Of a stretch of 54,344 bases of DNA, positions 686 through 39,300 are shown in pieces (position 1 is the stretch's first letter; each line of letters begins with the position of its first letter). The position numbers were made by a program, and so were the translations under genes. Source of the DNA: a virus. The stretch spans positions 1-54,344 of IMG/VR virus record IMGVR_UViG_3300023184_000163; one strand, given 5' to 3'. The notes beneath the pieces were generated by a model. It made no database searches. It was not told where the DNA came from and was given only the letters and a program-made list of their open reading frames with translations.

Positions 686-714
686 ATAATCATTATATTT
701 AATAAAAAAAAATC

Positions 715-1441: not shown

Positions 1442-1513
1442 AATATAATTTTTTAACAAATATAATAAAAAAATAGATTAACAAAAAAATAAACATAAAA
1501 ATATAATTTAACA
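1442..1513. promoter_or_regulatory. Divergent AT-rich intergenic region, probable promoter zone
   Basis: This 72-base spacer lies between the start of a leftward gene and the first gene of the rightward replication block. It is almost entirely A and T, and the hexamer TTAACA occurs three times (1453-1458, 1478-1483, 1508-1513). Divergent promoters must lie here or inside the flanking genes. No clear -10/-35 pair or Bacteroidetes TAnnTTTG box is seen, so this is a positional inference. Confidence 0.35.
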
Positions 1514-2101: not shown

Positions 2102-2280
2102 GTAAAAAAACAAAGTTATTTATGATTGCTATAGTGGGGAGTGTGATTGCTTTTATGTTGATTGATTTATTAGTTATTAATATAAGTGTACTTAACTATA
2201 TTTTTATAGAGTTAATTGTAACAGTTATGCATTCGCTATATAATATAGCAAAGATTCAAATTAAACCTAATCTAGATTAA
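2098..2280 (+). CDS. Small hydrophobic membrane protein
   Basis: A 60-residue protein that starts inside the stop codon of the previous gene (ATGA overlap). A basic N-terminus (MSKKTK) is followed by a strong hydrophobic segment at about residues 8-30 and a second, weaker one at about 33-48. That predicts one or two inner-membrane helices with a positive inside N-terminus. It sits between a putative helicase loader and the helicase, and ends one base before the helicase start. Possible roles are membrane anchoring of replication or an accessory lysis or host-interaction peptide. No family is recognised and the position argues against a standard holin. Confidence 0.5.
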   Translation: MSKKTKLFMIAIVGSVIAFMLIDLLVINISVLNYIFIELIVTVMHSLYNIAKIQIKPNLD

Positions 2281-2281
2281 A

Positions 2282-3280: not shown

Positions 3281-3290
3281 AAATTAATTT

Positions 3291-18318: not shown

Positions 18319-18352
18319 AGGGAAGAGCAGAAATGCTTTTCCCTTTTTTTTT
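18319..18352 (+). terminator. Strong terminator at the convergent junction
   Basis: AGGGAAGAGCA (18319-18329) pairs with TGCTTTTCCCT (18334-18344) around a GAAA tetraloop, an 11-pair stem with one G-T, followed by a nine-base T run. It ends the rightward block. The reverse strand lacks a comparable T run, and the leftward giant gene ends inside this T run at 18351. Confidence 0.92.
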
Positions 18353-21300
18353 AACGTCCTAATTTACTTGAACTATTTGCTAAGTTTTTAATTCCTGTTT
18401 CAGGATCACCCGTACTACCTGTAAAACCAATAGTTTTAAGAATATTATTTATAAGTTTATAATCTCCTTCTTCTTCCCAAGGATATGGTCCAGCATCTCT
18501 TTGATATTTAGCTGCATCTTCTCCAGTTAATCCATTAAAAATATTAGCTGCAATTTCTCCATATAAAAGCAATGTGTTTGCAAATACAGAACTTGTAGAA
18601 GTGAGCATTTTACCATAATCATCTAATCCAAAATTAAGTCCCATTATTTTAGGTAAAGGTATAAAAGCTGTAGTTTCTGCATTTACTCCTTGCATTAATA
18701 ATAATGTTTGATTTATCATATAACCTTGAGTATCATAACCTTTAGTTCCAAAAGCTTCAGAACGTTCTGCTATTTTTTTCCATTTATCTTCATCATCTTC
18801 ATCATAACCAAATAATAAAGCTGTTAAAAGTGCAAAACTTGTAATAAAAAGTGACTCAGCTGCAAGTTTTTTTAAAGCTATTTTTTCATCAGCACGTAAA
18901 TATTTAGCTTTTTGTCCTCTGCTTTTAATCATTTCCCACATAGCAGAAAATGCAGTTAAATAATATCCTTTTACAGTTTTACCAAGTGCCCAATCATAAC
19001 GAGGCATAAATTTTGGTGTTAGTTTACCTTTTTCCCATATAACTTCAGAACCAAATCTATTTATAAACATTGGAGTAAACCATTTTCTCATAAACATATA
19101 TAATCTATATAAAGTATATTTATTACCTTCTGGTTGACCCATAGAATCATATGCTCCAAATAATGCTCTTGAAGTTCCTTGTACTTGATTTCTAAACATA
19201 TTAAAACCTTCAGCTTTTGCAATTATAATTTCATCACCTTCAGCTAATTCTAAAACTGAACTAATTTTATTTTTTGCTATTAACTCTTCTTCAGTTACAT
19301 TGTATTGTTTAGCAATTAAAGCTAAAGTTTCTCCTTTAACAAAAGTATGATAAACATGTGTATTATTCCATTTAGGATGTATTCCTTTTTTTAATGTAAT
19401 TATTCCTTCAGAATTATTTTCCCAAGCATCTACATAACGTATTAATTGAACAGTGCCATCAGGCATAGTCATATCAACTTTTTGTGCATTTAAAAATGAA
19501 CCAAATAATGATAATGCAACTTCCATTTCACCAAACTTTCTATGCATATATAGCCATTCTCCATCAATTAAGTCTTTATATAAACTTCTTGAAACTGAAC
19601 GACCCATATTATCTTTTGTTCTAAAAGCAGGATCAAACATTTCTATTAATTGAGTAGTAAATGCTGGAGGACCTACTGCATATATTCCTTTTTTAGATGA
19701 CCAATTAATCATTGATTTAAAAGCCCATGATCTACCAAATGCTAAATCTTTTAATCCTATATGTTCATTTCCTGATGCTTCAATTATTAATTGAACCATT
19801 GCACCATATTTGTTTTTTAAATCAGAAGGTATATTAATAGCTAATGAAGCCATAGCAGAAATTTTTTGCATTCCATTTAGCAAAGCTGTTATTTTTGGAT
19901 AGTTTTCACTAGTTTCAGATTGATGTACACCATAAAATTCTCTTTCAAATAAAGATTTAACTTGTCCTAATACATTATTTTCTGAACCTTTTTTAGTTAC
20001 ATTTTCTAAAACACCATAAGCATTATATATATCTCTTCTAAATTCATTTTCTGCTTTAGGTTGAGCTTCAGAACTTGACAAAGTTTCAATTAAAGATTTC
20101 ATTAATGGTAAATTTTCTTCTAATACACTATATGTTTCTAATGATAAAGAATATCTCATTAAACTTTTAAATACATCTGGAGAAACTACATTAGGTTCTA
20201 AGTTATATAATCCTGATACAGGTATATAATTCATTTTTTGTCCAAAAGCATCTGTATTTACTAAATTGTTTTCAGGATTATAATTAAAATTATTTTCAAC
20301 ATTTACTTTAGACTGTCCAAACATTTGTTTAAAAAATTCTGTTGTATTTGCTTTTATTTGATTATATCTTTCAGAAGCATTTCCACTTTGTAAAACATCT
20401 AATTTAGAATCAATAACATATCTAGGAACATCTAAATATAATTTTGTTACATTAGCTTTATTTTCTTGACCTTGTAAATGATATTCAGTAATTGCATTTA
20501 GTAATTCAAAAGTTGCACTATTAGATCTTTTTAAATCAGCATATTTTTTATTCATATATTTATCTGTTTTTGCTCCTTTTGATGTACCATCATACATTTT
20601 TGGTAAAAAATTACCTTTATTATCTATTATTTTCCCAATATAAGTGTTTTTATCTTCTTCTGTTAAATTATATGGTAATGTTCTATATTTATCTTTTACA
20701 TTAAAAACTGAATGTCTTATATTTGGAACACCCATAATTAAAATTTCTTCTCCTGTAGCTTCATTTAATATTTTAGTAGTTTTAATTAATGAAGGATCCG
20801 ATGGAACAGTAATATTATTAACTACTGTTCTTTGATATTTATTTACATAATCTTTTTTTGTAATATCAAAAGTTTTTTTAGTAACATGGTTTAATATAAA
20901 CCATTCTTGAAAAGACTCATCATTAGCTACAATATCATAAAATTCATCTGAATTAATAAATGCATCAACATCATCACTTAATATTTGAGTATTAAGGTAT
21001 TTTGATAAACGAAAGTTTAATTCATCCATATAATAATCAGTAGGTAAAGTAGCAGATGAATCACCTAATTCATTATAAATAGCATTTAACTCAACAGTTT
21101 CTTCAATTGTAAGCCCTTTTCCTGATGATTTTTCTAATAAATATAAATATCTTTTTTCTTCATCTTTTGTTAAGGTTCTTTTTTTGGCTGAAAGAACATA
21201 GTTTATTAATTCTTCACTTTCAGTTTTAGATAAACCTCCTACATTTTTATTGTTAAATCTATAATCATTAATTTTTTGTTGTAAGTCTTTAATTTTTTTT

Positions 21301-24300
21301 ATTTTTTCAACACCTAATGCTTTTGGATCAGGTTGTCCTTGTTCATCTTTATATGTATATATTAAATCACCAATTTCTTTATAATTAGTACTTACATTAA
21401 AGTCAGATTCAGAAACTTTCATTTTTTCTTGTAGTTCTGACAATCTTGTTAATAATTCTGATCTTTTTTCATAATATTTAGGATCATAAACAAGTTTGGT
21501 GTTCATTTTAATCCAATCTTTTAATTTTACATTGTACTCATCACTATTAATTTTTACACCCTGTGTTATTAATTGATTTATAAATTCATTATATCCTTTT
21601 TGTAATGAACCAGGAACAGCAACATATTCATTAAAGTCTTTAGTTGCATTTCTATGTTCTCTTAAAAGTAAAGCTTTACTAAGATCATAAATTTCATTTG
21701 CTTCATCATCTATTTTAGGAGTACCATCTTCATAATACAATGAATAAAGAGATTGATACTTATGCCATGCTGCATCAGTAATAGTATAACTTTCAAATCT
21801 TTCTAATTCATTATGCAATTTATTTGATTCTGCATTAAACTCATCTAAAGCTAATTTTCTATCTAACCAAGCTAACTGACCTATTTTTGAGTCTTCAAAA
21901 ATTTTATCTTTTTCATAGTATTCAGGAACAAATTCTCTGTTCATGTAATCTTCATTAAAAGTTTTTAATTCTAACTCAGCTTTTTTAAGTTTATCAACAT
22001 CACCATCTTTACGTGCTTCATCTACATTAAACTCTAAGTTATCTAGATCATATCTCCAACCATTTCCAAAAGCATTTAAAAAAGTATAAACTTCTCTTTT
22101 TTCCATCTTATTAGTTTCTTTATTAAAAAAAGAAACACTATCTAAGTCAGAAACTAAATTTAACATGTCTCTTGAATTCCATTTACTAAATTCACTAATT
22201 TTTGGTAAAAGATTTTGTAATTTATTTCTAAAAGATAAAGATGCTTTCCACATTCTCTGTTCTGCTTCTTTTTTCTGATTATCAATATAAATTGCTAATG
22301 AACCTACTATAGGACTATTACTAGAACTATAACTTTCCATAAATCTATTTAAAATAGAAACATCTTTGTATTTACCTTCTAATGTTTTAATTATTGTATC
22401 TTTATTAATTATAAAATAATTAAATCTATCAATTATTTCTTTAATATATTTTTGCTCAACACCTTTATTTGATAATTCTTCTAAATCTTTTTCAGTAATA
22501 GTATTATTTTTAACTTTATTAAAAAAATCATTAAATTCTGATTCTGTTAATTTACCATCAATAGCTGATAATAAATCTTTATTTGCTTGAACAGTAACAA
22601 AATCACTCATATATTTTGTATTTTCTACAAAAAAGTTAATTGAGTTAATTTTAGAAATTTCTACTGCAATTTTTTCCCCACGTATAATATTTAAATTTAT
22701 TTGACTTAATAATTGTGAAAATGGATTTGTATTATCTACTACAAAATCTTTAGTAAGAATACCATCAATATCTGATAATGATTGATACCATCTAGCTAAT
22801 GCATTTCTATATAAACTTAATAAGTAAATATCATCTCTAGAACCAAAATTTTTCTTTTTCTTAAGTTTTTCTAAATTTTCTATAATTATATTAGTAACAT
22901 TATTAGTTACTTCTAAAGAGTTAACTAAAGATAAAGCACGGTTATTTAAATCTTTTAATCTTGCAGCTTCAGCATCTAATGCATTATCTAATATAACATC
23001 AATAGAATTATTATTAGACTTTAAAATAGTTTGATATGTTCTTAATGCTTTTTGTACAGCTGGAATTAATTTATTTGTTCCTTTTTCTATAAAACTTTCT
23101 AAAACTATTTTTTTAGTATTTTCATTAGTTCTATGTTTTCGAGCCATTTCTAATATTGATTGATTAGCAGCATACTGAGTATTAATAGACTCAGTAATTG
23201 CTTTTGTAGATGCACTATCAATTAATACTTTAGCTTTTTCTGTTTCATTTCTTAAAAACATTGCAACATCTTCTTCTTTAATGTTACTGGATTCAAAAAC
23301 AAAATCTTTTTCTAAAAGCATATCTGCTAATTTTTCTATAGATGTATTTACATTTAAATCTTTTATAACTTTTTCATTACCAAATACTTTTTTTAATAAT
23401 AATTTTATTTGATATAATAAATTTTTAATAAAACTATCAAAACCTTTAGTTTCAATTTTATTTGCTAATATATTAGCAGCATGTGTTTGTAATGACCAAG
23501 CTAAAGCTTCTTCTTTAAACTTAATTGAATCTTTTTCAAGTTCTGGATACATTTCAGTTACATAATCAACAATTTGTTGACCTTCTGTAGTTGATTCTAA
23601 TAGATTAAATAAATTATTAAATAGTTCAGAATTAGATACAGCAATTCCTTGTAACAGAGGGTGTGAAAATTCATGCAATACTGTATTAATTGATACATTA
23701 TCCCCTACAGTATAAATTGTACCTGCAAAATAAAATCCAGGTTCACCTTGATATGGAACTTTAGTTTTTTTTAATAAATCAATTGCTTGTTCTTGAGTTA
23801 TGTTTGCATAATTTACTTTAAGACCTAATGATAATCTTTGACTTAAAACAGATACTATTTCTTTTGCTCTTGCATTTTGTATAGTAGATAAATCAAATTC
23901 AAAAGAAGGTTGAATTAAATTTTCTGAATATCTTTGAAATACTATATTATCAAGATCTTTATTAGGTTCAATAGTTAATTCATTCCAAGTATTACCATAC
24001 TCATCTGTAATTTTTATTATACGTTCTTTACCAAATTGTTTTTTAAGAATATTAAATAAAGTGTTTTCATAAAAAGTATAAATAGGTCTAAGCTTAGCAA
24101 AACCACCTTCTTCTAAATCTTTTAATTCTTGCTTATACGTATTTAAACGATTTTGTAAATCATTAATAGCTTCTCTAACTCCTTTTTCATAAACATCTTT
24201 TGAATAAAAAGGTTTTACTTCTTCATATGTTTGAGTTTGTAATTTTAATATTTGTTCTTCACTTCCTTTTATAATATCTAAAAGATTTTGTTTTCTTCCT

Positions 24301-25727
24301 TGTAATGTTTGATGCCCTTCTACTTTACTAGCTGTATCACCAGTAGGAAATAATACTTTTTCATATCCTTTCTTAGCACTATCTTGCATGATAGATTTAA
24401 CAAAGAATGTTACCCAGTTATTGTCTTTGTTTAGTAGTTGTAAGAATTGATTTTGTTTATTATTTTCTTTACTAAGATAACTTTCTGCTATATTTTTTTC
24501 ATCTTTTGTTAATTCTTCTCCTTGCTCATATCTAAATATTATATCTTCAATATTAACAGGAGGGACCTCTCTAGTTAATAATTGTTTATCCCTACTTTTT
24601 TGAAACAAATCAGATTGTACTTCTAGTATTCTACGGGATCTAGAATTAATCCCTATAGAATCTTCTGCTTCTTTCTTTGTGTTATAGATTCCTAGTTTTG
24701 TCTTTGTGCGTCTATCGGTCACATGGAATTGATTGTTATACTCAAATATTTCTTGTCCTCCTATATATTTAGTAGGGTAACTACTTCTATCTTCTATAAA
24801 ATTATAGTAAGTATACAAACTATTCTGTACATGTTTTGTAGAAACATATTCATCACTTCTAAACCACCCTATACCCTGGTCTGTAGCAAACTGAGCATGT
24901 CCTTTAATAGAAGGAGTAATTTCTGGTGTAGCTATTTCTTGTTCTGTATAATTAGTACCACCTGGAACTGATAGATTAGAATAGTATTGAGTATTTCTAT
25001 CTCCTAAATTTTCAGTTTTTTTATATTGTTCAGTAGCTAAATTATATTCTTCTTTAGTTATTACATTACCATTTTTTCTATAAGTATCTATTTTAGAATA
25101 ATCATCACCATTTAAAGTAAATCTATCATATCCTACATTAGCACTTTCAATAGATTCAGTAGCAATATTAATATCAACAGTATAACTATAAGCAGCAGCA
25201 ATAGCTACAGCTATTTCATCTTTAGTCATTCCTGGTTTAGCAACTTCTTTAAATAGTTCAAGTTGTTGATTAGATACTCCTTGTTTTTGAAGATCATTTA
25301 ACCAACCTTGAAGTTTAGAAGTTTCAAAATTACTTCTATTTATTTTACCTAATGTTTCAACTATCTTTAATGAATAATTAACACTTGGTGTTTTCATAAA
25401 CATAGGTTGATCTGTATCAGGTCTATTTTCATATTCATTTACAAGAATATCTAACTGAGTAAATAATGCTTCATTAGGGATTGCTCTATATACATTATAT
25501 GTAGAGTCTCTATAATATGGAGTATCTTTTAAATAAATAGATTTTTGTTCCCCAGCAGAAAATAATTTTTCATCACCAGTTTCTAAATTATATTTAGTTT
25601 TAGCATACTCAGTTAAAGTATTATTAAGCTCATTAAATAATGATAAATCAAGAATTTTTCTTATATCATCGGTAGCACCATTTTTAATTAAATAGTCAAG
25701 TGAATTAATTTTTGAATTACAGCTCAT
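18351..25727 (-). CDS. Giant virion-associated polyvalent protein (metallopeptidase-like, LysM-like)
   Basis: A 2458-residue protein, last of three giants. The N-terminal ~600 residues include ILEVQSDLFQ (~365-375) and KVLFPTGDTASK (~455-468), blocks shared with phage polyvalent proteins. A metallopeptidase-like site VLHEFSHPLLQG has H685, E686 and H689, with a following EEALAWSLQTHA helix (~737) that can supply the third ligand. Residues ~900-1750 are long charged helices. A LysM-like module (~2125-2172, with KGETLALIAKQYNV) and a membrane segment (~2292-2310, SFALLTALLFGY) lie near the end. It is probably packaged and injected, acting at the cell wall, membrane or in the cytoplasm. It starts five bases after the RNA polymerase gene ends. 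Roles are inferred. Confidence 0.75.
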   Translation of the reverse strand: MSCNSKINSLDYLIKNGATDDIRKILDLSLFNELNNTLTEYAKTKYNLETGDEKLFSAGEQKSIYLKDTPYYRDSTYNVYRAIPNEALFTQLDILVNEYENRPDTDQPMFMKTPSVNYSLKIVETLGKINRSNFETSKLQGWLNDLQKQGVSNQQLELFKEVAKPGMTKDEIAVAIAAAYSYTVDINIATESIESANVGYDRFTLNGDDYSKIDTYRKNGNVITKEEYNLATEQYKKTENLGDRNTQYYSNLSVPGGTNYTEQEIATPEITPSIKGHAQFATDQGIGWFRSDEYVSTKHVQNSLYTYYNFIEDRSSYPTKYIGGQEIFEYNNQFHVTDRRTKTKLGIYNTKKEAEDSIGINSRSRRILEVQSDLFQKSRDKQLLTREVPPVNIEDIIFRYEQGEELTKDEKNIAESYLSKENNKQNQFLQLLNKDNNWVTFFVKSIMQDSAKKGYEKVLFPTGDTASKVEGHQTLQGRKQNLLDIIKGSEEQILKLQTQTYEEVKPFYSKDVYEKGVREAINDLQNRLNTYKQELKDLEEGGFAKLRPIYTFYENTLFNILKKQFGKERIIKITDEYGNTWNELTIEPNKDLDNIVFQRYSENLIQPSFEFDLSTIQNARAKEIVSVLSQRLSLGLKVNYANITQEQAIDLLKKTKVPYQGEPGFYFAGTIYTVGDNVSINTVLHEFSHPLLQGIAVSNSELFNNLFNLLESTTEGQQIVDYVTEMYPELEKDSIKFKEEALAWSLQTHAANILANKIETKGFDSFIKNLLYQIKLLLKKVFGNEKVIKDLNVNTSIEKLADMLLEKDFVFESSNIKEEDVAMFLRNETEKAKVLIDSASTKAITESINTQYAANQSILEMARKHRTNENTKKIVLESFIEKGTNKLIPAVQKALRTYQTILKSNNNSIDVILDNALDAEAARLKDLNNRALSLVNSLEVTNNVTNIIIENLEKLKKKKNFGSRDDIYLLSLYRNALARWYQSLSDIDGILTKDFVVDNTNPFSQLLSQINLNIIRGEKIAVEISKINSINFFVENTKYMSDFVTVQANKDLLSAIDGKLTESEFNDFFNKVKNNTITEKDLEELSNKGVEQKYIKEIIDRFNYFIINKDTIIKTLEGKYKDVSILNRFMESYSSSNSPIVGSLAIYIDNQKKEAEQRMWKASLSFRNKLQNLLPKISEFSKWNSRDMLNLVSDLDSVSFFNKETNKMEKREVYTFLNAFGNGWRYDLDNLEFNVDEARKDGDVDKLKKAELELKTFNEDYMNREFVPEYYEKDKIFEDSKIGQLAWLDRKLALDEFNAESNKLHNELERFESYTITDAAWHKYQSLYSLYYEDGTPKIDDEANEIYDLSKALLLREHRNATKDFNEYVAVPGSLQKGYNEFINQLITQGVKINSDEYNVKLKDWIKMNTKLVYDPKYYEKRSELLTRLSELQEKMKVSESDFNVSTNYKEIGDLIYTYKDEQGQPDPKALGVEKIKKIKDLQQKINDYRFNNKNVGGLSKTESEELINYVLSAKKRTLTKDEEKRYLYLLEKSSGKGLTIEETVELNAIYNELGDSSATLPTDYYMDELNFRLSKYLNTQILSDDVDAFINSDEFYDIVANDESFQEWFILNHVTKKTFDITKKDYVNKYQRTVVNNITVPSDPSLIKTTKILNEATGEEILIMGVPNIRHSVFNVKDKYRTLPYNLTEEDKNTYIGKIIDNKGNFLPKMYDGTSKGAKTDKYMNKKYADLKRSNSATFELLNAITEYHLQGQENKANVTKLYLDVPRYVIDSKLDVLQSGNASERYNQIKANTTEFFKQMFGQSKVNVENNFNYNPENNLVNTDAFGQKMNYIPVSGLYNLEPNVVSPDVFKSLMRYSLSLETYSVLEENLPLMKSLIETLSSSEAQPKAENEFRRDIYNAYGVLENVTKKGSENNVLGQVKSLFEREFYGVHQSETSENYPKITALLNGMQKISAMASLAINIPSDLKNKYGAMVQLIIEASGNEHIGLKDLAFGRSWAFKSMINWSSKKGIYAVGPPAFTTQLIEMFDPAFRTKDNMGRSVSRSLYKDLIDGEWLYMHRKFGEMEVALSLFGSFLNAQKVDMTMPDGTVQLIRYVDAWENNSEGIITLKKGIHPKWNNTHVYHTFVKGETLALIAKQYNVTEEELIAKNKISSVLELAEGDEIIIAKAEGFNMFRNQVQGTSRALFGAYDSMGQPEGNKYTLYRLYMFMRKWFTPMFINRFGSEVIWEKGKLTPKFMPRYDWALGKTVKGYYLTAFSAMWEMIKSRGQKAKYLRADEKIALKKLAAESLFITSFALLTALLFGYDEDDEDKWKKIAERSEAFGTKGYDTQGYMINQTLLLMQGVNAETTAFIPLPKIMGLNFGLDDYGKMLTSTSSVFANTLLLYGEIAANIFNGLTGEDAAKYQRDAGPYPWEEEGDYKLINNILKTIGFTGSTGDPETGIKNLANSSSKLGR

Positions 25728-25732
25728 TATTT

Positions 25733-28700
25733 TTATATTTTACAAGTAAAAGGATCTTCTTCTAAACCAAAGTTATCTAAAATTTCTTGATCTGAGATGC
25801 CTTGTCTATTTTTTACTAATTTTTGCAAGTCTTTATACATTGTAGAACCTGGATTTAAAAAACCAATAGGTTGTTGATATAGTTCTTTTGAAAGATGTAT
25901 AAATAATTCTTTAGGCATTTCAGTAACACTTCCATAACCTGTACTTAAAAATGCAACAGGTAAACCATCTTTAACTAATGTATTAATTAACTCAAATTGT
26001 TCATTATAATAATTAATAATATTGTTATAAAAATCAGATGGTAAATCTTTCATGTTATCAGTCATATTATTCTGTGCTACTGGTAATCCAATAGACATTT
26101 CTGATGCAATATTTTTAATAACTGATTTACCGGTTGCTTGTGCCTTATTTTGTAAAATAGCAATTGAAGTTGGGTAAACAAAAGTAACATCAGTATTTTT
26201 AGATAAAACATTATTATAGTTAGTTGGAATAAAATTAATATCATCCATTATAAAAACATTAGGATTTTTTGTTTCCATTAAACCATATCTTTCATTTGTT
26301 TTAACAACATCTAAATCTTCTTCAGTACTAACAGAAGGTAAAATGTCAGACTTACTTGTTTTTTTCATATTAGATAAATCATCAAGATTAAAGTCAAGTA
26401 AATAATTTTGGAATCTACCTTTATCAGTTTTAGATCTATTATTTTCTCTAATAAATCTAGAATATAACATATCTAAAAATTTATTTGCTAAAGTATTATC
26501 TTCTAAAACATTGATTAATTTTTTAGATTCATCATTTACAAGATTTATAAAATCATTATACTGTACAATATTTGTAAAATTAAATTTAGTTTTATTAATA
26601 CCTGTTTGCATAAATGCATAAAAAGGTAACTTTGAAAAGAAATCACTTATCATAATATTTTCTGCATCATTGTCTACTTTTTTAATACCAGGATTAGAAA
26701 GATCTAATAAATTTTTATGATATAAATTAGATATATCATTAGTAAAATCTTTTTCAGCTACATATAAATTAAACATTGTTTTTGCAGCATTAGGTTCATT
26801 TTTAATCTTATTTATAATTGCATAATTACCTTGCAATTCAGTTTTATATTTATTAATAATATTATTAAATTTAACAGCAAATGCTTCTTTAGGATCACTA
26901 AACATGTGATATGGATTTAATGTATTTTCTAAAGCTTTATTTGTAATAAATTTTTCATAAGTAAATCTTTCTGCTTTTGTACCGGAAAACTGTGGATACA
27001 TTTCTTTTATAGTTTTTAATTCAGAATTAAAAGAATATAATTTTTTTATATCAGACATAGAATATATTGATCTTAAGTATTCTCTTTCAGCTACAAATTT
27101 TATATATTCTCCTTCATTAGATTTTTTATCTAAACGGAAATGAGAAATTGATAAAGGATACAAACCTCTTTTAAAATAACTATCTTTTTGTTGTGAATTG
27201 ATATCAAAAACATTTCTAGTAAAGTCATCTTTTATTGCTTTTTCATCTACATATAAAACTTTATTACCTTTTTTATCTTCTTTTACATATGCACCAAATT
27301 TTAATTCATCAACTAAACTAACTGGTATTGTTTTATTAAGAGTATATGATTTATAAGTGTCACTTAATTTATATTTTCTTGCAGCATTTTGGAATAAAAA
27401 ACTAATCATAGCATTTCTAAATGAATTTTTAAATGCAGTTGTATTATTTTTACCAAATGTTTTAAGAGTATCTTTTCTTATTTGACTATTTTTAGTTATT
27501 AAATAACTTGATACAGCATCATTATATCTTAATGGAAATATTAAACTATTAATTGCAATAGATAGTTTACCCATAAAAAATGAACTTATAATACTACTTT
27601 TTTGCATAGCATTTACTAAATCAGGTTCTAACTTACTATTAAATTCTAATAATTCTAAATTTGCTTCTGTTTCTTCAACTTCACTACCTGAGACTTTTAA
27701 TGATGTGTCAGGATTAGATGCCATTTTTAATTCAGTTAAACCTGTAATTTGTTGTTCAATTTGTAAAAAATGTAAAAACATTGCTAATGAAAATTCAGTA
27801 GATATCTTATCAGGATTTGTTTTAGAATCTTTAATAAGATTATACATTTCCTTTTCAGTAAAATAATCATTATTTCTATTTTCAAATACAGCATTTGCTA
27901 ACTCAATTCCTTTGTTATATCTTCTTTCATTAGTTGATAATGATTTTGCAGTTTCTGGTCCAAAATATTTTTTAATAACATTAGAAGCAGAATTAAACTT
28001 AATTAAATTAGGATCTCCTGGAGATTTTCCTAATACATCAGCATAAGTTGATTTTCCTAAATTTTGTTCTTTTACATACTCTCTTACTAAAGGTTGTGAA
28101 ACAAAATAAATAGCTTCTTTAACCGGTACACCTGTTTTAATTAAATATAATAATAAAGGTGCAACTTCATAGTTACCTTGAATAAAAAATATCCAAGCAT
28201 CTTTTTCAACGTCAACCCAACCATTCATCATTTGTGAAAAAACATCTGAGATTTTATTTTTTTTATCAACGTCATATTTATTAGATATAGAAATTAATTT
28301 TACACCATCTTTAAATACCTTATTATGTCTTAACCATAACATTGATTTTCTTTCTTTCTCATTATGTAAAAATGTATCTGGCATAGCAGCACCACCATTA
28401 GTTTCTATAGAATTTATTATAGTATGAAATTTATTTTCTATTGCTCCTAATCCTAGTGTTCTTTTACCTACAACATTTGATTCATGTTTATATATATTAT
28501 ACAATGCTTCAAATACTCTTGTTGGGCTTATAGAAGATTTTTTTGAACCATCTTTATTTTTTTGTTTAACACTTTTATTAAGTTTATCAGAAGATCTATT
28601 TATATACGGATTATAATCCATTACATATTGTGATAAATCATCAGCAATATCTTTTAATAAATATGTTCCATTAGGAGTTATAAGAGATATATAATTTTGT

Positions 28701-31700
28701 GGTAATTCTAAAATTCCACGGACACTATCTATTAAATTATTTTGTAATGATTTTTTTTGCATATTTAATGCAAATGCTTTGTCTTCTTGTGATACTGTAG
28801 GATCTGCTAAGTATTCTTTAAGTTTATTAAAAGATTTACTATCATTATCTGAAGTAAACATTTGTTCAGGTAATGTACCGTCAGCATTTAAATTTGCCAT
28901 ATATAATGTTAACTTATCAATGTCAAAGTCAGCTCCTGATTTAGCAACTATTTCTGAAGGAGGAATAATAATATTACCGGCTTGTGCAGGTAAAAAATGA
29001 TAAACTTCCATAAACTCCATAGAGTTTAAACCCTGTACTGGTATTCTAACACCAACAATAGTAACTGCTTTTCTATTTTGACCATCATTTAAATTTAACC
29101 ACTCATTATTCTTAATAAGTTCATTTAATTTATCAAGAGTTTTAATTTTATTTCCATCAAGATCATTAAGATTAAGTAAGTTTTCATAATCACCTTGTAT
29201 AGCAATCATTATTTTCATTGCTGCAGTTTTACCATCTTTTTGTTTATGATAAGTTGGTAAAAAATTAGACCCTACATATTTTTTTATATCTTCATCAGAA
29301 CCTAATCTTAATTTAGGTTTTTTAAATGTATTTGTATAAAATGCAGCTGAAACTTGTACTAAAGGTTCTCCATTTATTTGTTGCTTTATAACTCTTTTAT
29401 TAATAATTGACATTATTAATTTTTCAATTTTAGCAGCTTCAGGATGAAGAGATAAGTCAAACTTTAATTGACCTGAATCTAAAACATCAATAAAATCTAT
29501 AAGATGATCTCCTATGACATCATCAATTTCTAAGTTATCTCTTATTAGGTTAGCTAATTTTTCTAAACTATCACTAGACTTAGGTGAATAATTACCGTTG
29601 TTTTCTTCAAAACCTATTTCATTTAATAAATCTAATTTTAAAGTTTCAGTATAATCATTTACATCATTTAAATACTTTTTTACTGCAGGATTTGTAATCT
29701 TATCTTCATTTGTAGTATCTATTATACCTTTTTCATACAAACCTTCTAAAATAATAGCTCTTAATTGAGTTGAAAATATAGAACTTTTTTTGTATGAAGA
29801 ATTTATTTCAGTTTGATTTTTTAAATATTCTGCAAAAATTGTATTTTCAGTAAAAATTACATCTTTATTAAAAGAACCATCTTCATTTATAACTACATCA
29901 CCTTTACCAATATGAGATACTTTAGAACCTGATTCAAATAGTACATAATCTATTCCTTGTTTCATCATAGCATCATGTAACATATCTTGATATCCATTTT
30001 CACTTGATAAATTTGGAATAAGAGGTGATAAAGAAAATTTATGAAAAGATGTAATTGGTAATATTTCAGTTTTAATATTTCCAAAATACTGTAATTTGTA
30101 AGGAGGAAAATATTGTATTACATCTTCTACAGATAAAGAGTCTCCATTTACAATTTTTTTATATAATAACTCTTGATTATCACTCCAGTTACCTTCTAAT
30201 TCTTTTAACATACGATAACTTTCTAAACTGATGTGACCTTGACCATCACCTTCTTTCATGCCTAAATATTCACTTAATGTTTTTTTAGCAATTTCAGCAG
30301 CATTAACATTATCTCCTAATCTTTTTTTAATAGATTCAGTTAATTCTTTTAAATACTCTTTATAATATACAGATTCTTTTATTTCTTTTTCTTTTATAAC
30401 AGCTGTTTTTAATGTACCATCATAATTTTTAATTTTATAATTTTTTTTATTAGCATATAATCTTGGGAAAAAAGATTTATCATTTATATAAAATTGTGCT
30501 TGAATATCAGATCTAAAACCTAGACCACCAGATGCTAAACCAGCATTTCTTTTATGAAACTCTTCTTTATCATGGTTATACTGTACTAAATCACCATAGG
30601 CTAATATAATAGTCTCGTATTTATGTATCCATGAATTATAAGTATAAGCTTTTATTAATACTTCATCTACTTGAAGTTTGTTTAACCCTTGCTCAAAACC
30701 TTTTTCATATAAAGTTTGATCTATAAATCTAGCTGACTCAAGTTTATTTAAATTTAAAGCAGTTTCTTTATTAAAATAATTTAAAATATCTTTTTTAATT
30801 TCTTTTTTTAAATCATAATTTTCTTCTCTTTCTAAATATTCTATTAAATTTTCTTTTATTTTATATAATTTTTCTTTAGTTTCTTCTGTTAAAACATCAT
30901 CAAATGCTGTAAAAACTGATCCAGCCATAACAACAGTACCATTTTGTTTTTCAACTTCTCTACTGTATCCTGCCCAATCAGACATTACATCTATATTATC
31001 ATTAAATCTATTTATTCTTTCTAATTCACCGGCTAAATAACCTAACATAATATAAAAGCCTTCAGTTTCACCTTCTCCACTATTTTTAGGTTTAAAAGAC
31101 TCAATGTCTATATATAAATGATCATCAGATTTATTTGGATATGATTCTATTTTTTGTGAAGATAAAGACATAGCAGTTTGTTTAGAAGCATGTCTCATAA
31201 ACTCTTCAACACCACTTAATAACATTGTATGTAATTCTTGTAAAAACTTACTTGTTCCATCTAAAGCTGCAGTTACTTCACCAGTATACTCATTTTTTTC
31301 AGTATCAATTAATTGTGTTCCGGCAACATTATTTAATGTTAATTTTACATCTACAAATTCTGAACCTTTTTTAACTTTTCTTTTAAGTCCATAATTATCA
31401 GCTTCTATATCATCTAAATAAAAAATAGAATTTAATAATTGTGAATATTTTGAATGAGGATTGTTTTCATTTGACAACCAACGCATGTGTTTATATTTCC
31501 CATTAGGATCAGCTTCTTGTCTTGTAAGTTCTTGAAAACTATTAGCACTATTAATAGATGTAATTACTCTTGTAATAGTATTATCAACTATTTGTTCCCA
31601 TAATCTATTTCCATCAGGGGATAAAACACTAAAATTTGAAAAACCATCAGACCATTGAACTTGTAATTCAGCTAATAATTTTATACTATTATTAACATCA

Positions 31701-34700
31701 TTTTTTTTAGCATTAACTGGTACTAATTCTTTTGGTAAACCTTTTTGTAAATATTCTAATGGATTTTTTTTAAATTTTTGAGAAGCAGCAATTTTACTAA
31801 TATCAGTAGATAAACCTGCATTATGAACAATTTTAACATTTTCTAAGATTAAATCTAATTTAAACTGTTGACGTATTGCTAAAGAATTATTAAATAAACT
31901 ATTTAATTCAGGACTTGTATTATCCATTTCAATTCCAAATACTTTTAAAAAATCTCTAGATTTTTCAGTTTTAAAAACTCCGTTTCTATCACTAAAAGTT
32001 TTTATAATTTTATCAGTATTTAAAAAATTTACACCATCTGCATCTACTTCTATATATGGATTTACTTCAACTGATGCAGATATAAAGTTAGATTTCCAAT
32101 CATTTATAACAGGATATATTGCAAGACTAGCATCTACAACTAATGTATCATATGATGCAATTTCATCTTGAGTAGTTCTACCTTCTTCATCATATTTTCT
32201 TCTTTGAGTAATATTTTTATTAATATTAAACTGTATATATTTAACTCTTGGTTTTTTTAAATCTTTAAAAAAATTAGTTTCAAGAGAAAACTGTAATTTA
32301 TCATTTAATTTTAATTGACTTGGAGGTCTTAAAATATCTAAAAGTTGAATAAACTCAGGATAATTATCTGAAGCATAAGCAATTCTATTATACATATCTT
32401 CATAATCAAAAGAACCTTCAGTTATTTTAGATAGTTTATTCCATATTATATTTAAGTCTTCTAATTGTGGAGTTCCAAAATCATCTAATACTTCTATTAT
32501 AGCACCATCTTCAGTTTTTTGAATTTGATTAATATTTGAAAGCAACATTAATGTTGAAGGAGTTGCAAGATTTTTAGGATTGATAACATTTCCTTTATAA
32601 TCTTGTAAAATTCTTGTATTTTCTAAATCATCTGGATCTTCAAGTAAAACTTCTTGAATAATTTTAAATCTAGATTTTTTTATGTTATAAGCTAATACAT
32701 TATCTTTTTCTTTTCCATTTAATGTTTTAGATATATCTCCAAAATTTTCTAATGCTTTATTTAATAAAACTATATTATTAAATATATTTTCATTTTTAAT
32801 TAAACTTTCAGTTTTATCATCTTCAACTGAATCTACAAGAGAAGTTAAATACTCTAATTGCAATTGTATTCTATCTTTAATAGAATTAAAAGTACTTTCT
32901 TGAAGAACAGGGTCTGAAAATAATCTAATTACACCTGTACTTGATTCTTCATTTGCATTATACTCAGCTATTTCTAATCCTATAAAATTATCAATTGTAT
33001 TATTAATTTTATCTGACTCATCAATAGTAAAATTATTATTTATAGTTTTAAGTCTATTAAGTTTAGAAAACATTATGTTATCCATACTTGGTTTTAAATC
33101 TAATATTTCTCCTTTATAAAGTTGATCAAAATAATTTTTAATATTAGCAATATCTCTTGGTCTAATCATGTCTTGTTGAGTAATTTTACCAAACATTACA
33201 CGTAAAAATTCTTTAATTTTTTTAAATATTTTTCCAATAAAACCAGTATATAAAGTTTCATCTTTCATAAAACTTCTAAAATCTTCAGCTATTATTTCTT
33301 CTATATCTAAATAATCTAATTCTGACCATTTTGGAATTTTTCTCATTTCCTCGTAAAGTCTTGTTTTTTCATCAAGAGTTAAGAACAACTGAGAAAAACC
33401 ATGCCATGCCTCATGATATAAATCAATTGGAGTTGCATTATTAGCTAAATTTAGTGTTATACCATGTTGTGACCATGTTGCAAATGCATTTGAGTTTATT
33501 ACTTCAGAAAGTTTTTCTACAGTGTCAAGGGGAATAAAACTATCTCCATTTTGTTTCTTTGCTTGAGATAAAAAACTTTTTTCCCACCATTCATATATAG
33601 AATCTCTTTGTGCTTTTGTTGTAAATAATTTTTCAAATAAACCTGTTATACCTCTTTCATAATTAATAACTCTTGTTAAAGGTTTATTATTATTATTAAA
33701 TAAATTACGTAATCTATTTGCTAGATCATCAGATGGTTTACCATTTAATTTACTATCATTTTGTTTTTGTGTTTGACCTGATTTTTTTGCATAAACTTTT
33801 TTAGTTGTTTTTTTAGCAAAAGATGTTTTAGTAAAAGATGTTTTAGTAAAAGGTTTTTTAGTTTTTGATTTAGTTTCTGCTACAGCATCTCCAAATCTTT
33901 CTTTAAATTCATTTTTATCTGAAACAACCCATTGACCATTTCTACCAGCTTTATAAATTTTTGTAAATTTCCAACCTGATGGTACGGTAACCTCAACACC
34001 TATACCTAATTTTTTAGCAGCTTTAATAAAAGCTTCAGATACACCTGTTTCACCAGTTGTAACAATTTGAGAAATTGTTCCTTCTAAATCCGGGGAATTA
34101 ACAATACCTTCTAATATACTATACATATATTTATCTATATCAGATTGTGAAAAACCTTTTTTGTATAGTTCAACAATGTTATTTCCTGTAATATTTATTT
34201 TATCTTTTTTAAATCTATTTAATTGCTTTACTAGATTATTAACAACACTATTTAGATTAGGAACTGTATTACTTTTTCTATTTTTTCCAGATAAAGCTAA
34301 AGCAATATATTCTTTTTTATTTGTTGCTTTTGCAATTTTAGCATCACCTGTAATAAAATCAACACCAATATTAAAAGTTATATCTGAATTATTAATATTT
34401 TCTTTTATTTGAAATGCTGAAGATAATTTTTTAATATTATAAATAACATTACCTGGTTCAACAACTATATTTGTTGCATCATCTATATCATTTTTTTCTT
34501 TAGCTTTTTTTGTTTTTGCTTGTACTTGATTAGTAAAAATATTATATTTTGAAGATGTTCCCGCAGGAGTTATTTCAGTAGGTACTAAAAATGACAAATA
34601 AGAATTACCATTTAAAAAATATGCACCAGATTCTGGACTAAATTCAATTTTAATAAAAGGATATATAAATTCAAAATAATTTTTAGAAACTGCAACTATT

Positions 34701-36346
34701 TTATTATCTTTAATAACATAATCTGAAAAATTTTCTTCCATTATATTATTCATAGAAAAATTTAAATTAGCTGGATACACATTAGTTCCAACTTCAACTG
34801 CATTTAATAAATGTTTACTTATTAAATCTTTTGCATTTGGTAAACTTAAATCAACATTTTCACCTTTAATTTTAACTACTAATGTTGTTACGCCATTTAT
34901 TGAAGGTGTATCTATTTCAATATTATTTTTTATTTGATCTGTGTTATAAATTTTTACATTATCACCTAAAAATATTTCTGCATACTTTCTTCTTTGTGCA
35001 GGAGTTAATTCATCACCACGGTATTTTAATTTAGTAGTTAATATATCTGCTATCTTATCAGCTAACTCTTTATTAATATCTCCTCTTTGTAATTTAATAG
35101 TATGATTTATTTCATTATCTCCTATATTTTCAGTAAGTTGCATTTCAACAATACCTCTTTTTTTACCGGCTATATAAGGTTGATTTATTTGATCAAAAGT
35201 TATATTTGTTTCTGAAATAGGAACAAATATTCTAGGACTAAATCCATAACTACCACCAGTAATTTTAAGAACAACTACTTCTTCAGGATTATTTTTAATA
35301 TACTCATGTAAAGTATATAATCTATTTAACTTATCTTTTTGAATTCTTTTAACATTACTAATTTTCTTTTTAATTGTATCTTTTGACATACCAAAAGGTT
35401 CTGTTTCTTTATACAATTTATTTTCAGCATCTACAATGTCAACAGGATCAACTAAACTATACTTATAACCTGATCTATTAGTTAAAGCTAATTTTCCTTC
35501 ATCTAGTACCACATCTCTTATTGCTTGATATACTAGTCTACCTTCATCAGGATCATTAGTAATTTTACCATCTTCTGTAAAATAAATTAAATTACCTTCT
35601 ATATCAGTAATAACATTCATAATACCATTATACTCAGGATTTTTTCTTAAAAACTCAACATCATCAGAAACTAAAAAAGATGTACCATCTGATTTAGTTG
35701 GAAAATTATTTACAAGAAAAGGTCTTTGAGCAAGAGAAACATTATCATAAATTATTTCATTTTGATCAGCAGGTTTATTTTTATTTAAAGTAATAATGTT
35801 TTTAATAACTAAAGCAAACATTTTTTTCTCAGGATCTTGTACATCCTGTTCATCATCATTTGGACTTTTTGTTTTTGAATAATTAATTGTATTAGTTAAT
35901 GGATTATCAACTTTACTTTTTTTCTCAACATTACTAATTTTAGATTCTGATTTTGGATCTTCAATTATAACATCTTGTGATTTTATATTTTTTTGTATTA
36001 TCTTTTGTTTTTGTTCTTTTATGCTAACTTTTTTAGGTGCAAAAAAACTTTTAACATTTTTTAATTCTTCAAATTCAACACTTCGGTTGTAAATAGAATT
36101 AAAATCAAAATTATTTTTTACAAGTTTACTTTTTACAGCTTTTTGATTAGTAACTAAAGTAAATATATCAGGAACAGCCTGTGCATAAAGCAAAGCTTTA
36201 GCAGTATCTTCAGAAGATTTTAAAGCTAAGTCATAAAAAAATTTAATAAAATCATCTACATTAATAATATCATTACTTTTTTGTAACTTAAAATAAATTA
36301 ATTTATATACATCACTTATTTGCTCTTTGTTTAATGCACATGCCAT
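25733..36346 (-). CDS. Virion RNA polymerase (crAss-like DFDID type), giant fusion
   Basis: A 3537-residue protein. The motif SGADFDIDKLTLYM with D2473, D2475 and D2477 is the metal-binding DxDxD signature of the crAss-like phage virion RNA polymerase, a single-chain double-psi beta-barrel enzyme delivered with the DNA to transcribe early genes. The characterised Cellulophaga phage enzyme is about 2,200 residues, so ~1,300 extra residues are fused here. These include a metallopeptidase-like site HEAWHGF (H978, E979, H982) with EEIIAEDF downstream, a basic Lys/Thr repeat linker (~822-860), and an uncharacterised C-terminal ~400 residues ending DPFTCKI. It is flanked by the other two giants with gaps of five and two bases. 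Confidence 0.88.
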   Translation of the reverse strand: MACALNKEQISDVYKLIYFKLQKSNDIINVDDFIKFFYDLALKSSEDTAKALLYAQAVPDIFTLVTNQKAVKSKLVKNNFDFNSIYNRSVEFEELKNVKSFFAPKKVSIKEQKQKIIQKNIKSQDVIIEDPKSESKISNVEKKSKVDNPLTNTINYSKTKSPNDDEQDVQDPEKKMFALVIKNIITLNKNKPADQNEIIYDNVSLAQRPFLVNNFPTKSDGTSFLVSDDVEFLRKNPEYNGIMNVITDIEGNLIYFTEDGKITNDPDEGRLVYQAIRDVVLDEGKLALTNRSGYKYSLVDPVDIVDAENKLYKETEPFGMSKDTIKKKISNVKRIQKDKLNRLYTLHEYIKNNPEEVVVLKITGGSYGFSPRIFVPISETNITFDQINQPYIAGKKRGIVEMQLTENIGDNEINHTIKLQRGDINKELADKIADILTTKLKYRGDELTPAQRRKYAEIFLGDNVKIYNTDQIKNNIEIDTPSINGVTTLVVKIKGENVDLSLPNAKDLISKHLLNAVEVGTNVYPANLNFSMNNIMEENFSDYVIKDNKIVAVSKNYFEFIYPFIKIEFSPESGAYFLNGNSYLSFLVPTEITPAGTSSKYNIFTNQVQAKTKKAKEKNDIDDATNIVVEPGNVIYNIKKLSSAFQIKENINNSDITFNIGVDFITGDAKIAKATNKKEYIALALSGKNRKSNTVPNLNSVVNNLVKQLNRFKKDKINITGNNIVELYKKGFSQSDIDKYMYSILEGIVNSPDLEGTISQIVTTGETGVSEAFIKAAKKLGIGVEVTVPSGWKFTKIYKAGRNGQWVVSDKNEFKERFGDAVAETKSKTKKPFTKTSFTKTSFAKKTTKKVYAKKSGQTQKQNDSKLNGKPSDDLANRLRNLFNNNNKPLTRVINYERGITGLFEKLFTTKAQRDSIYEWWEKSFLSQAKKQNGDSFIPLDTVEKLSEVINSNAFATWSQHGITLNLANNATPIDLYHEAWHGFSQLFLTLDEKTRLYEEMRKIPKWSELDYLDIEEIIAEDFRSFMKDETLYTGFIGKIFKKIKEFLRVMFGKITQQDMIRPRDIANIKNYFDQLYKGEILDLKPSMDNIMFSKLNRLKTINNNFTIDESDKINNTIDNFIGLEIAEYNANEESSTGVIRLFSDPVLQESTFNSIKDRIQLQLEYLTSLVDSVEDDKTESLIKNENIFNNIVLLNKALENFGDISKTLNGKEKDNVLAYNIKKSRFKIIQEVLLEDPDDLENTRILQDYKGNVINPKNLATPSTLMLLSNINQIQKTEDGAIIEVLDDFGTPQLEDLNIIWNKLSKITEGSFDYEDMYNRIAYASDNYPEFIQLLDILRPPSQLKLNDKLQFSLETNFFKDLKKPRVKYIQFNINKNITQRRKYDEEGRTTQDEIASYDTLVVDASLAIYPVINDWKSNFISASVEVNPYIEVDADGVNFLNTDKIIKTFSDRNGVFKTEKSRDFLKVFGIEMDNTSPELNSLFNNSLAIRQQFKLDLILENVKIVHNAGLSTDISKIAASQKFKKNPLEYLQKGLPKELVPVNAKKNDVNNSIKLLAELQVQWSDGFSNFSVLSPDGNRLWEQIVDNTITRVITSINSANSFQELTRQEADPNGKYKHMRWLSNENNPHSKYSQLLNSIFYLDDIEADNYGLKRKVKKGSEFVDVKLTLNNVAGTQLIDTEKNEYTGEVTAALDGTSKFLQELHTMLLSGVEEFMRHASKQTAMSLSSQKIESYPNKSDDHLYIDIESFKPKNSGEGETEGFYIMLGYLAGELERINRFNDNIDVMSDWAGYSREVEKQNGTVVMAGSVFTAFDDVLTEETKEKLYKIKENLIEYLEREENYDLKKEIKKDILNYFNKETALNLNKLESARFIDQTLYEKGFEQGLNKLQVDEVLIKAYTYNSWIHKYETIILAYGDLVQYNHDKEEFHKRNAGLASGGLGFRSDIQAQFYINDKSFFPRLYANKKNYKIKNYDGTLKTAVIKEKEIKESVYYKEYLKELTESIKKRLGDNVNAAEIAKKTLSEYLGMKEGDGQGHISLESYRMLKELEGNWSDNQELLYKKIVNGDSLSVEDVIQYFPPYKLQYFGNIKTEILPITSFHKFSLSPLIPNLSSENGYQDMLHDAMMKQGIDYVLFESGSKVSHIGKGDVVINEDGSFNKDVIFTENTIFAEYLKNQTEINSSYKKSSIFSTQLRAIILEGLYEKGIIDTTNEDKITNPAVKKYLNDVNDYTETLKLDLLNEIGFEENNGNYSPKSSDSLEKLANLIRDNLEIDDVIGDHLIDFIDVLDSGQLKFDLSLHPEAAKIEKLIMSIINKRVIKQQINGEPLVQVSAAFYTNTFKKPKLRLGSDEDIKKYVGSNFLPTYHKQKDGKTAAMKIMIAIQGDYENLLNLNDLDGNKIKTLDKLNELIKNNEWLNLNDGQNRKAVTIVGVRIPVQGLNSMEFMEVYHFLPAQAGNIIIPPSEIVAKSGADFDIDKLTLYMANLNADGTLPEQMFTSDNDSKSFNKLKEYLADPTVSQEDKAFALNMQKKSLQNNLIDSVRGILELPQNYISLITPNGTYLLKDIADDLSQYVMDYNPYINRSSDKLNKSVKQKNKDGSKKSSISPTRVFEALYNIYKHESNVVGKRTLGLGAIENKFHTIINSIETNGGAAMPDTFLHNEKERKSMLWLRHNKVFKDGVKLISISNKYDVDKKNKISDVFSQMMNGWVDVEKDAWIFFIQGNYEVAPLLLYLIKTGVPVKEAIYFVSQPLVREYVKEQNLGKSTYADVLGKSPGDPNLIKFNSASNVIKKYFGPETAKSLSTNERRYNKGIELANAVFENRNNDYFTEKEMYNLIKDSKTNPDKISTEFSLAMFLHFLQIEQQITGLTELKMASNPDTSLKVSGSEVEETEANLELLEFNSKLEPDLVNAMQKSSIISSFFMGKLSIAINSLIFPLRYNDAVSSYLITKNSQIRKDTLKTFGKNNTTAFKNSFRNAMISFLFQNAARKYKLSDTYKSYTLNKTIPVSLVDELKFGAYVKEDKKGNKVLYVDEKAIKDDFTRNVFDINSQQKDSYFKRGLYPLSISHFRLDKKSNEGEYIKFVAEREYLRSIYSMSDIKKLYSFNSELKTIKEMYPQFSGTKAERFTYEKFITNKALENTLNPYHMFSDPKEAFAVKFNNIINKYKTELQGNYAIINKIKNEPNAAKTMFNLYVAEKDFTNDISNLYHKNLLDLSNPGIKKVDNDAENIMISDFFSKLPFYAFMQTGINKTKFNFTNIVQYNDFINLVNDESKKLINVLEDNTLANKFLDMLYSRFIRENNRSKTDKGRFQNYLLDFNLDDLSNMKKTSKSDILPSVSTEEDLDVVKTNERYGLMETKNPNVFIMDDINFIPTNYNNVLSKNTDVTFVYPTSIAILQNKAQATGKSVIKNIASEMSIGLPVAQNNMTDNMKDLPSDFYNNIINYYNEQFELINTLVKDGLPVAFLSTGYGSVTEMPKELFIHLSKELYQQPIGFLNPGSTMYKDLQKLVKNRQGISDQEILDNFGLEEDPFTCKI

Positions 36347-36348
36347 TT

Positions 36349-39300
36349 TTAACAGATTTTAGTATTATTATTAAAGCTTTTTAATAAATCATCTTCTGAT
36401 ACATTATTGTTTTCAAGATAATCTACTATTTTAGATTGTGCATCAGTATCTTTTGAAAATTCATCATATATCATTTGAGAATCTTCAGCATTTTGAATGT
36501 CTTCTTTAGTTAATTCAGTATCATTTTCTAATTCAGCAGCTTCTTCATTCATTTTTATAAAATTTAATTTAAGATCTGTTTGATTAATGTCACCTTTTTC
36601 ACCAGTTATTACATCTTCTACTGTAACATAAGTTTCAGTAACATTTGTAACTTTAACAGGGTTAATATTTGTATTATCAAAGATAGTATTTTTAGGTAAC
36701 AAAAGCATGTTTACATCTAGATTTTCAATAGACATATCTACGTTTAAGTTATTTAATCTATTGTTATAAACATCATGTAATTCATCAGTATTTATACTTA
36801 ATGGATCAGTTTCAATTTGTGTTAGAGCTTCTATATATTTAGTTCTAATTGTATCTATAGTAGCTTTATTAATTGCATCAATAAACTTTTTACCTTTTTT
36901 AGTAGTCTCTATAACATTTTCTTTTTCAGTTGGAATGTTTCCTAATAAAAATGAATTAGATACTAATGTTTCAGTTATTCTTTGTTTTGCTTCAGCATTT
37001 GTAACATTTCTTGTTTTTTGTCCAGAAACTCCTTTTGTTTTTCTACTTCTAGACTTTTCATTCTCAGGTACACTAGTCCTATCGGATACTGCTTGTTGTC
37101 CAAAGACTTTTCCTGATTCTTCTTGGGAACGTTTACTGATTTTTCCATTTTTAGTTAAAGTTATAAGTTGTAAATCATTTATTAAATTATTAATAGCTAT
37201 TATTTGGTTATCTACATCAGTAGAAATATTACCTCTTGTTGTTACTTGAGAAGCTAATTCAGTTAAATCTTCTAAAACAGTATTAGACCAAGTTTTAATA
37301 GCTTTAAGCTCACTATCAGTAATACTAGGAACACCTTCATCAAAAAGTTTATTTAATGCATCAGGATAGTTCTTAGCTAAAATTTCATCTAATTTAATTG
37401 CTAGTCCAGGTGAGTAAGATAATCTAGAAATTTCTTCTAAATCTTTCTTTCTATCATCATTAGTTTTACCTGCATATAATTTAAAATTTTGAGGAGAACT
37501 ATTAATTGCAAAAATGTAATCATTTATATTACCTCCACGCATAGTTCTTTGTGGATTATTATTACTTAATTCTTTAAGAGTTTGCCGTATACCCTTTAAG
37601 TCCATTGTTAATTTACCTATAGTATTAACATTACTATTAAATTTCTCAGAAGGTTCATCTGTAGAAGTGGTAAAAGATTTATTTTCTTTTTGTAATTGTT
37701 GTATAGTATTAAGTATAGTATTTTCTTCTTTTTCTAATTTTGCAATTTCTGCATCATTAACATCATATGTAAGAGAAGCAATAATATTTGGATCAGTACC
37801 TGAGTAGTTAACTCTATATAAAACATCATTAATTAATACAGTATTTTTATTTAAAATTCTAGTTGTATATGAAACATTATTAATAATAATAGTTTCAAAT
37901 ACTTTTTTAGTTGTTTTAACTTGAGATAAACCAACATTATTTAAACTTAACTTTGGATTAGTTACTGCAATTGACTCATAATATAAATCTATAATTTTAG
38001 ATTTAGTTGGTACTTCTACTATATCAGCTTTAGTATCTGTAGTAGAAGTAAGTTGTTTTTCAAGGTCAACAATTTGTTGTTTTATATTATTAGCTTTATC
38101 AACATTTCCAAATTCACCCTCTTCAGTTTTTAAATTTTCTTTTAAAGTATTAATAGCAATTTTAAGAGTATCTTGATCTGCAGTAAAATCTTGTTTGGTC
38201 AAGTCTTCTGAAACAGTTGTTTTTGTTTCATATGTTTTTATAGGATCAATTTGTATACTAAAGGTTCCATTGTCATTAAAAATTAATGTGCCAATTTCAC
38301 CATTGTATAAAACTTTTTTTCCAATGTTATCTTTTAAAGATGTAGATGCACCAATTTCTTCTACAAGTTCATCTGTTGTTTCTATTGTGTCAACATCACT
38401 TATAACAGGAGTTTTTAAAGGAACAATTGATTCAACTTCATTAAAATAATCTAATTCATATGTAGTTAAATCAGAATCTGATACAATATCAGAAAGTTTT
38501 GCACTTAATAAATTACCTTCTCTATCATAGTTAACTTCAATAGGAAGTAAAGAAATTCTTTCTGGCATTATACCAGTCATATTATAAAATAAATTTCTAT
38601 AAATAGATTGTTGAATCCTAAAATATAACTTTTTGCTATACTTACTTGTATCTGTTAATTTAATAACGTCTGCATTACTATTTATTTCAGCTTCAGTTTT
38701 TCCTTCATTATTTAATTTAGTTTTTAATTTTTCTAAATTATTTTCAGCAATAATAGATTTCCAACTTTTTCCTAATAAAGCTTTTACATCTATAATACTA
38801 AACTTACCTTCAGCAGATATTGCAATTAAATCTGTTTCTCCAACTAATCCATTTTCAAATAGTGACTTATCAAATAACATATCACTTGCACTAACAATCA
38901 TATATTTACCATCAATAACACCATCTCTAAAATTAGTTATTATTCCATGGTTACCAAATAAACTATCAAATGCACTTTGAGACATTTTTTCAGGTTTTAC
39001 AATTTTTTTAAATTGTAAACCTTCACGAGTTAAAAAATCTTTTATTAAAACATCAAGCATGTTTCCTACATCTGCTGCTTCTTGATAAGCTGCTCTTTGA
39101 ATTACAGCAATTACATTTTCTCTTGAAAAATCTTTAGTTAACTCTTTTTCAATTTTTTCAAACTTAATAGGGTTTAATGTTAATGAATCTTTACTTCTAA
39201 AAACATTTGATTTAGCAGAATTTAAAACTTTAAGTTTAAAAGCTTGAATAAAAATATCTAATTTATCTTCATCTTTAATACTGGCATCTGCCATTATTGC

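Follow-up and report, generated by a model that had tools for sequence, protein, structure and literature searches.

Terminal cysteines at gene junctions suggest an end-to-end linkage of the injected giant proteins, including the virion RNA polymerase, of crAss-like phages

This study addressed the nature of a 3,537-aa protein encoded on a 54,344-base virus record (IMG/VR IMGVR_UViG_3300023184_000163, analysed at full length and referred to here as the window), and asked how such a protein, if it is an injected RNA polymerase, might be delivered. The original prediction described it as a crAss-like virion RNA polymerase with the catalytic signature SGADFDIDK (D2473, D2475, D2477), enlarged by about 1,300 residues that include a metallopeptidase-like site and an uncharacterised C-terminal region, and proposed that the fused parts may process or deliver the polymerase. 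The observation was confirmed, as the ORF is present and its DFDID motif lies inside the stated 28900-28960 (Table 1), with an ATG start that is well fixed because the open frame continues only four codons upstream (3,541 aa). The interpretation was partly supported: the polymerase identification is upheld by homology and delivery is plausible, although by a route that had not been foreseen, while processing by the fused part is not supported. One detail was incorrect, in that most of the extra length is N-terminal, with about 1,110 more residues before DFDID than in gp66 (g066) of Cellulophaga phage phi14:2, and only about 245 more after it. The C-terminal region is mostly the normal polymerase C-terminus by position, and residues 3132-3262 match the equivalent part of the cr118_1 protein.

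The DFDID motif is not a chance occurrence, since G2471, D2473, F2474, D2475, D2477 and K2478 are invariant in 16 relatives down to about 37% identity, and profile alignment places it exactly on DFDID 1361-1365 of gp66. A tblastn search with residues 783-3537 found only crAss-like phages or gut phages like them, among them phi14:2 g066, annotated as the catalytic RNA polymerase subunit (E 2e-16), and crAss001 gp50 (E 3e-16). Profile alignments (HHalign) matched residues 1718-2759 to g066 648-1659 (99.8%, E 1.3e-28), and residues 960-1452, 1253-2796 and 3132-3262 to successive parts of the 4,946-aa protein of cr118_1; the matches to gp50 (99.9%) and to the C-terminus of crAss001 gp47 (97.0%) are given in Table 1. 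An AlphaFold model of residues 1700-2899 was of modest confidence (pLDDT 60), but in a Foldseek search it matched PDB 6VR4, the g066 structure, at E 4.8e-10 and probability 1.00, with the next hit at E 3.2. When the model was examined for a double-psi beta-barrel around DFDID, pLDDT there was only about 26-43. Pfam, PHROGs and PDB sequence searches of the whole ORF gave nothing useful except phrog_10774 (unknown function) at residues 642-794. The extra N-terminus was also compared with phi14:2 g067, without a match.

On the minus strand the window holds giant genes head to tail, encoding proteins of 1,022, 1,132, 1,096, 2,518, 3,537 and 2,458 aa, followed by a convergent replication block with matches to a DnaB-like helicase, primase, exonuclease and DNA polymerase. 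A transcription block of giant proteins next to the replication block is as expected for the order Crassvirales, although no head genes were identified in the record, which appears to be a fragment. The proteins on either side of the polymerase are gp47-like (gene 1, upstream) and gp49/g065-like (gene 3, downstream). Gene 3 carries a cassette after its conserved first 100 residues that is present in some relatives (survey loci L014, L018), missing in the closest ones (L006, L008, L021) and replaced in others by different modules, some with extra HExxH motifs, and so looks like a swappable effector carried by the injected protein. Gene 3 also contains a zincin-like HExxH motif, HEFSH, conserved in all relatives. 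A variable insert in the polymerase ORF, matching phrog_10774, resembles by eye a YpsA/SLOG-type nucleotide-binding domain, but Pfam gave only a weak cpYpsA hint (E 0.54).

Table 1. Features of the giant-gene region; positions refer to the window and residues to the protein concerned
Feature	Position	Strand	Residues	Basis
Gene 1, gp47-like protein, 2,518 aa, single cysteine at the last residue	36349..43905	-	1-2518	residues 1593-1826 match gp47 1690-1892
Probable PD-(D/E)XK nuclease-like region of gene 1	38428..39129	-	1593-1826	motif read by eye; HHalign to gp47 E 1.4e-13; such a domain is reported in crAss-like transcription proteins (PMC7886860)
Cys2518 codon of gene 1 (C-terminal side of junction 1)	36352..36354	-	2518	codon read in the DNA
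Cys3 codon of the polymerase (N-terminal side of junction 1)	36338..36340	-	3	codon read in the DNA
Gene 2, virion RNA polymerase ORF, 3,537 aa, only two cysteines (C3, C3535)	25733..36346	-	1-3537	homology to phi14:2 gp66 and crAss001 gp50
Variable insert	33647..34546	-	601-900	phrog_10774, E 2.4e-12
Zincin-like module	33053..33520	-	943-1098	HHalign to the C-terminus of crAss001 gp47 (2122-2314), E 7.8e-11
HEAWH motif	33401..33415	-	978-982	H978, E979, H982 and E1016/E1017/A1020/E1021 invariant in the clade
RNA polymerase region	28049..32587	-	1254-2766	HHalign to crAss001 gp50 294-1814, E 2.2e-33
DFDID catalytic motif	28916..28930	-	2473-2477	aligned to gp66 1361-1365
Cys3535 codon of the polymerase (C-terminal side of junction 2)	25742..25744	-	3535	codon read in the DNA
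Cys3 codon of gene 3 (N-terminal side of junction 2)	25719..25721	-	3	codon read in the DNA
Gene 3, gp49/g065-like protein, 2,458 aa, single cysteine at residue 3, LysM near the C-terminus	18351..25727	-	1-2458	HHalign to gp49 E 7.9e-16 and g065 E 7.8e-11; LysM E 1.1e-6
Cassette in gene 3	23958..25415	-	105-590	presence or absence among relatives
HEFSH motif in gene 3	23661..23675	-		conserved in all relatives

The fusion itself is widespread and was rejected as the unusual feature of this locus. Relatives of the window carry the same architecture at 3,249-4,124 aa, other Crassvirales have versions of 4,000-6,000 residues, Suoliviridae fuse even more, as in the 4,946-aa ORF of cr118_1, a review cites crAss-like RNAPs of up to about 6,000 aa (PMC10136315), and such fusions have already been cited by authors working on P23-45 (PMC10770324). 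The distance from HExxH to DFDID is roughly constant, at about 1,280-1,530 residues in most phages that have the motif in the same chain, and where the motif is in gene 1 it lies just before the break. The order PD-(D/E)XK-like region, zincin-like module, polymerase and gp49-like protein is thus constant, while the places where this virtual superprotein is cut into genes move.

What does stand out is the distribution of cysteines. The three adjacent giant proteins hold only four in 8,513 residues, all at the four ends that face one another across the two junctions, where about 59 would be expected at the control rate of 6.9 per 1,000. The same terminal pattern holds for the relatives found in IMG/VR and for crAss001, phi14:2 and others. 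Across 88 non-redundant crAss-like loci (70% redundancy), and using strict criteria (gene length, first ATG, first 8 or last 12 residues), cysteine was found at 240/255 ends that face another chain protein and at 6/129 ends that do not (Fisher p 1e-74, not corrected for kinship), against a background of 11% and 15% in other ORFs, so that chance and composition were rejected. After correcting starts and setting aside broken ORFs the counts became 234/234 and 0/115, with both partners present at 117/117 junctions, although these corrections were made after seeing the data, and the loci are partly metagenomic and related to one another. The upstream protein carries its cysteine at position -1 to -18, usually -1 or -2, and the downstream one at position 3 to 7.

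The cysteines follow the gene breaks. Where genes 1 and 2 are fused (cr118_1, cr10_1, L089, L091, L099, L113, L121), only the 2/3 junction has cysteines at the ends, and where genes 2 and 3 are fused (Intestiviridae, L078, L079), only the 1/2 junction has them. Where all three are fused (L115, L117, L120, L132, L137; 5,220-5,639 aa) there is no cysteine at all, while in L130, where gene 3 is cut in two to give a fourth gene, the new junction has its own, third pair. The gene 1/2 break has also moved relative to the zincin-like module, and the cysteines moved with it. In contrast, breaks made by introns or frameshifts leave no cysteines at the split (L035, L018, L095 compared with the intact L097, and L165). 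In L035 (16416-17311) and L165 (10183-11130), two separate phages, the polymerase gene is interrupted at the DFD(I/V)D codons by an inserted endonuclease-like ORF, presumably an intron, whereas the split in L018 is a frame change inside conserved polymerase; Rfam searches of the window and of L018 found no RNA family. A DNA or RNA signal between adjacent genes was considered and rejected, because gene 1 of crAss001 lies on the other strand and still obeys the rule, and both TGT and TGC are used.

On a tree of 62 polymerases the two breaks changed at least 8 and 4 times, and 4/4 plus 3/3 independent pairs on supported branches follow the rule, although this number is small. A test written down in advance and applied to unseen records gave 16/18 junction ends and 0/15 outer ends; of these records, cr110_1 belongs to the same genus as the previously seen cr11_1, and L165 came from a scan run just before the test was set, though its ends had not been looked at. 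The two misses were cr110_1, where the annotated start lies upstream of a Met-Ser-Cys, and cr273_1, whose cysteine is 50 residues from the C-terminus in a low-complexity tail. The polymerase genes of crAss002 and cr11_1 had likewise seemed to fail, but an internal Met-Ser-Cys start repairs both, and the annotated starts of crAss002 gp33 (L040 15951-16050) and cr110_1 (L171 16119) are probably too far upstream, the internal start fitting both the rule and the relatives L046 and L039. Further exceptions are L104, with its C-terminal cysteine at -18, and L098, whose polymerase is interrupted by extra ORFs and where one expected C-terminal cysteine is not at the ORF end. Several later scans of IMG/VR mostly returned loci already in the set or nothing. 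Most links are otherwise free of cysteine, but internal avoidance is not universal, as Intestiviridae have many internal cysteines, as does a crAss-like group (L111, L112, L116, L126, L128) whose polymerase ORFs have 12-40 and yet keep the C-terminal one and the N-terminal cysteine of gene 3; only the end rule is general.

The simplest reading, held here with fair confidence, is that the polymerase is the middle link of a three-protein chain that would be packaged in the head and injected before the DNA. In this view the two cysteines of each junction form a disulfide in the oxidising virion, a reversible stand-in for the peptide bond, so that the giant proteins can be threaded, partly unfolded and in fixed order, through the narrow portal and tail as one chain, which the reducing host cytoplasm then takes apart; internal cysteines would be avoided because they would mispair while the chain is unfolded. 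What the analysis establishes is the rule itself, that is, the paired cysteines wherever the superprotein is cut into genes and their absence from fused versions and outer ends, whereas the formation of the bonds, the pairing between neighbours, the cleavage by host reductants, and the packaging and early transcription activity of the window protein are inferred. All three crAss001 homologues were detected in virions, the tail has constrictions under 50 Å, partial unfolding is expected, and crAss001 virions contain other disulfides (PMC10172136). However, no disulfide between these proteins has been observed; the crAss001 cryo-EM work did not resolve the cargo, and the text consulted does not mention such links, although reduced and non-reduced gels were run. 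Small thioredoxin-like genes are annotated close to the giant transcription genes in several crAss-like phages (L002 12454-12699, L038 31481-31750, L035 22543-22788) and might make or break the proposed links, but none was found in the window.

Comparison with known systems places the rule in context. In phi14:2, gp66 is shorter (2,180 aa) and lacks the N-terminal extension with its zincin-like module and variable insert, but it shares the polymerase region over about 1,000 residues, the order of flanking giant genes and the terminal cysteines (gp66 C3 and C-2, neighbours g067 C-1 and g065 C3). The crAss001 proteins gp47, gp50 and gp49 are homologous and show the same cysteine pattern, with the zincin-like module at the end of gp47 rather than in the polymerase. 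In cr118_1 the zincin-like module and polymerase are on one chain with the same spacing (1,475 against 1,495 residues), and since gene 1 is fully fused only the polymerase/gene 3 junction exists. Coliphage N4 also ejects a giant virion polymerase through a narrow tail, but of an unrelated single-subunit family, and its separate gp50, gp51 and gp52 (3,500, 644 and 150 aa) contain no cysteine at all, which fits avoidance of mispairing in threaded proteins. The disulfides of the crAss001 tail hubs and of Agrobacterium phage Milano tails also occur in extracellular particles, but are static cross-links of structural parts and not end-to-end joins of injected proteins.

Other explanations appear unlikely. 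The terminal cysteines could chemically link each protein to a copy of itself, or to another virion protein such as the portal or cargo protein C1, and Bayfield et al. suggest room for several copies per virion (PMC10172136), but this does not explain why only ends facing a neighbouring chain protein carry cysteine, why both partners occur together, why fusion removes both, or why an extra gene break adds a pair. Another thiol chemistry, such as thioester exchange, enzyme-catalysed ligation or shared metal binding, joining the ends permanently or transiently, is similarly doubtful: each junction has exactly two cysteines close to two termini, but their positions vary, the N-terminal residue is not cysteine as native ligation needs, two cysteines are few for a metal site, and crAss001 virions do contain disulfides. 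Processing of the polymerase by the fused zincin-like module, as first proposed, is also improbable. The metallopeptidase-like site is real and conserved, HExxH with downstream E1016/E1017 being invariant in 16 relatives, and the crAssphage annotation calls the homologue an RNAP-associated protein fused to zincin protease. However, the module is in a different polypeptide in Steigviridae and Intestiviridae, several lineages have no HExxH there, the motif being missing in many phi14:2-like phages, and no cleavage site was found. A structural model of the module had a mean pLDDT of 62.8 with the motif helix in place, but Foldseek returned no PDB match, and peptidase activity is inferred from the motif alone. 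That the cysteines are functionless relics tolerated in floppy tails, under a general avoidance of cysteine in ejected proteins that is wider than Crassvirales (as N4 shows), is very unlikely, as relics would not persist at essentially every junction end across very divergent polymerases, be absent at every outer end, survive where internal cysteines are common, or vanish in fused forms in several lineages.

While the polymerase belongs to the family already represented by gp66, the linkage rule is new, no mention of it having been found in the open papers searched, a set that does not cover the subscription paper on gp66. How proteins of 250-400 kDa pass a tail channel under 50 Å wide, in the right order and number, is an open question for crAss-like phages, which are among the most abundant viruses of the human gut. 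The rule is open to a concrete and inexpensive test on phages already in culture, and predicts the chain order, a 1:1:1 copy ratio and a redox trigger for release; it also allows the gene boundaries and start codons of these giant genes to be called correctly. It is probable, though not established, that crAss-like phages package their transcription apparatus as one covalent chain, a redox-released polyprotein in which disulfides replace peptide bonds wherever it is split into genes, and this suggests a design principle for injecting very large proteins as reversible chains.
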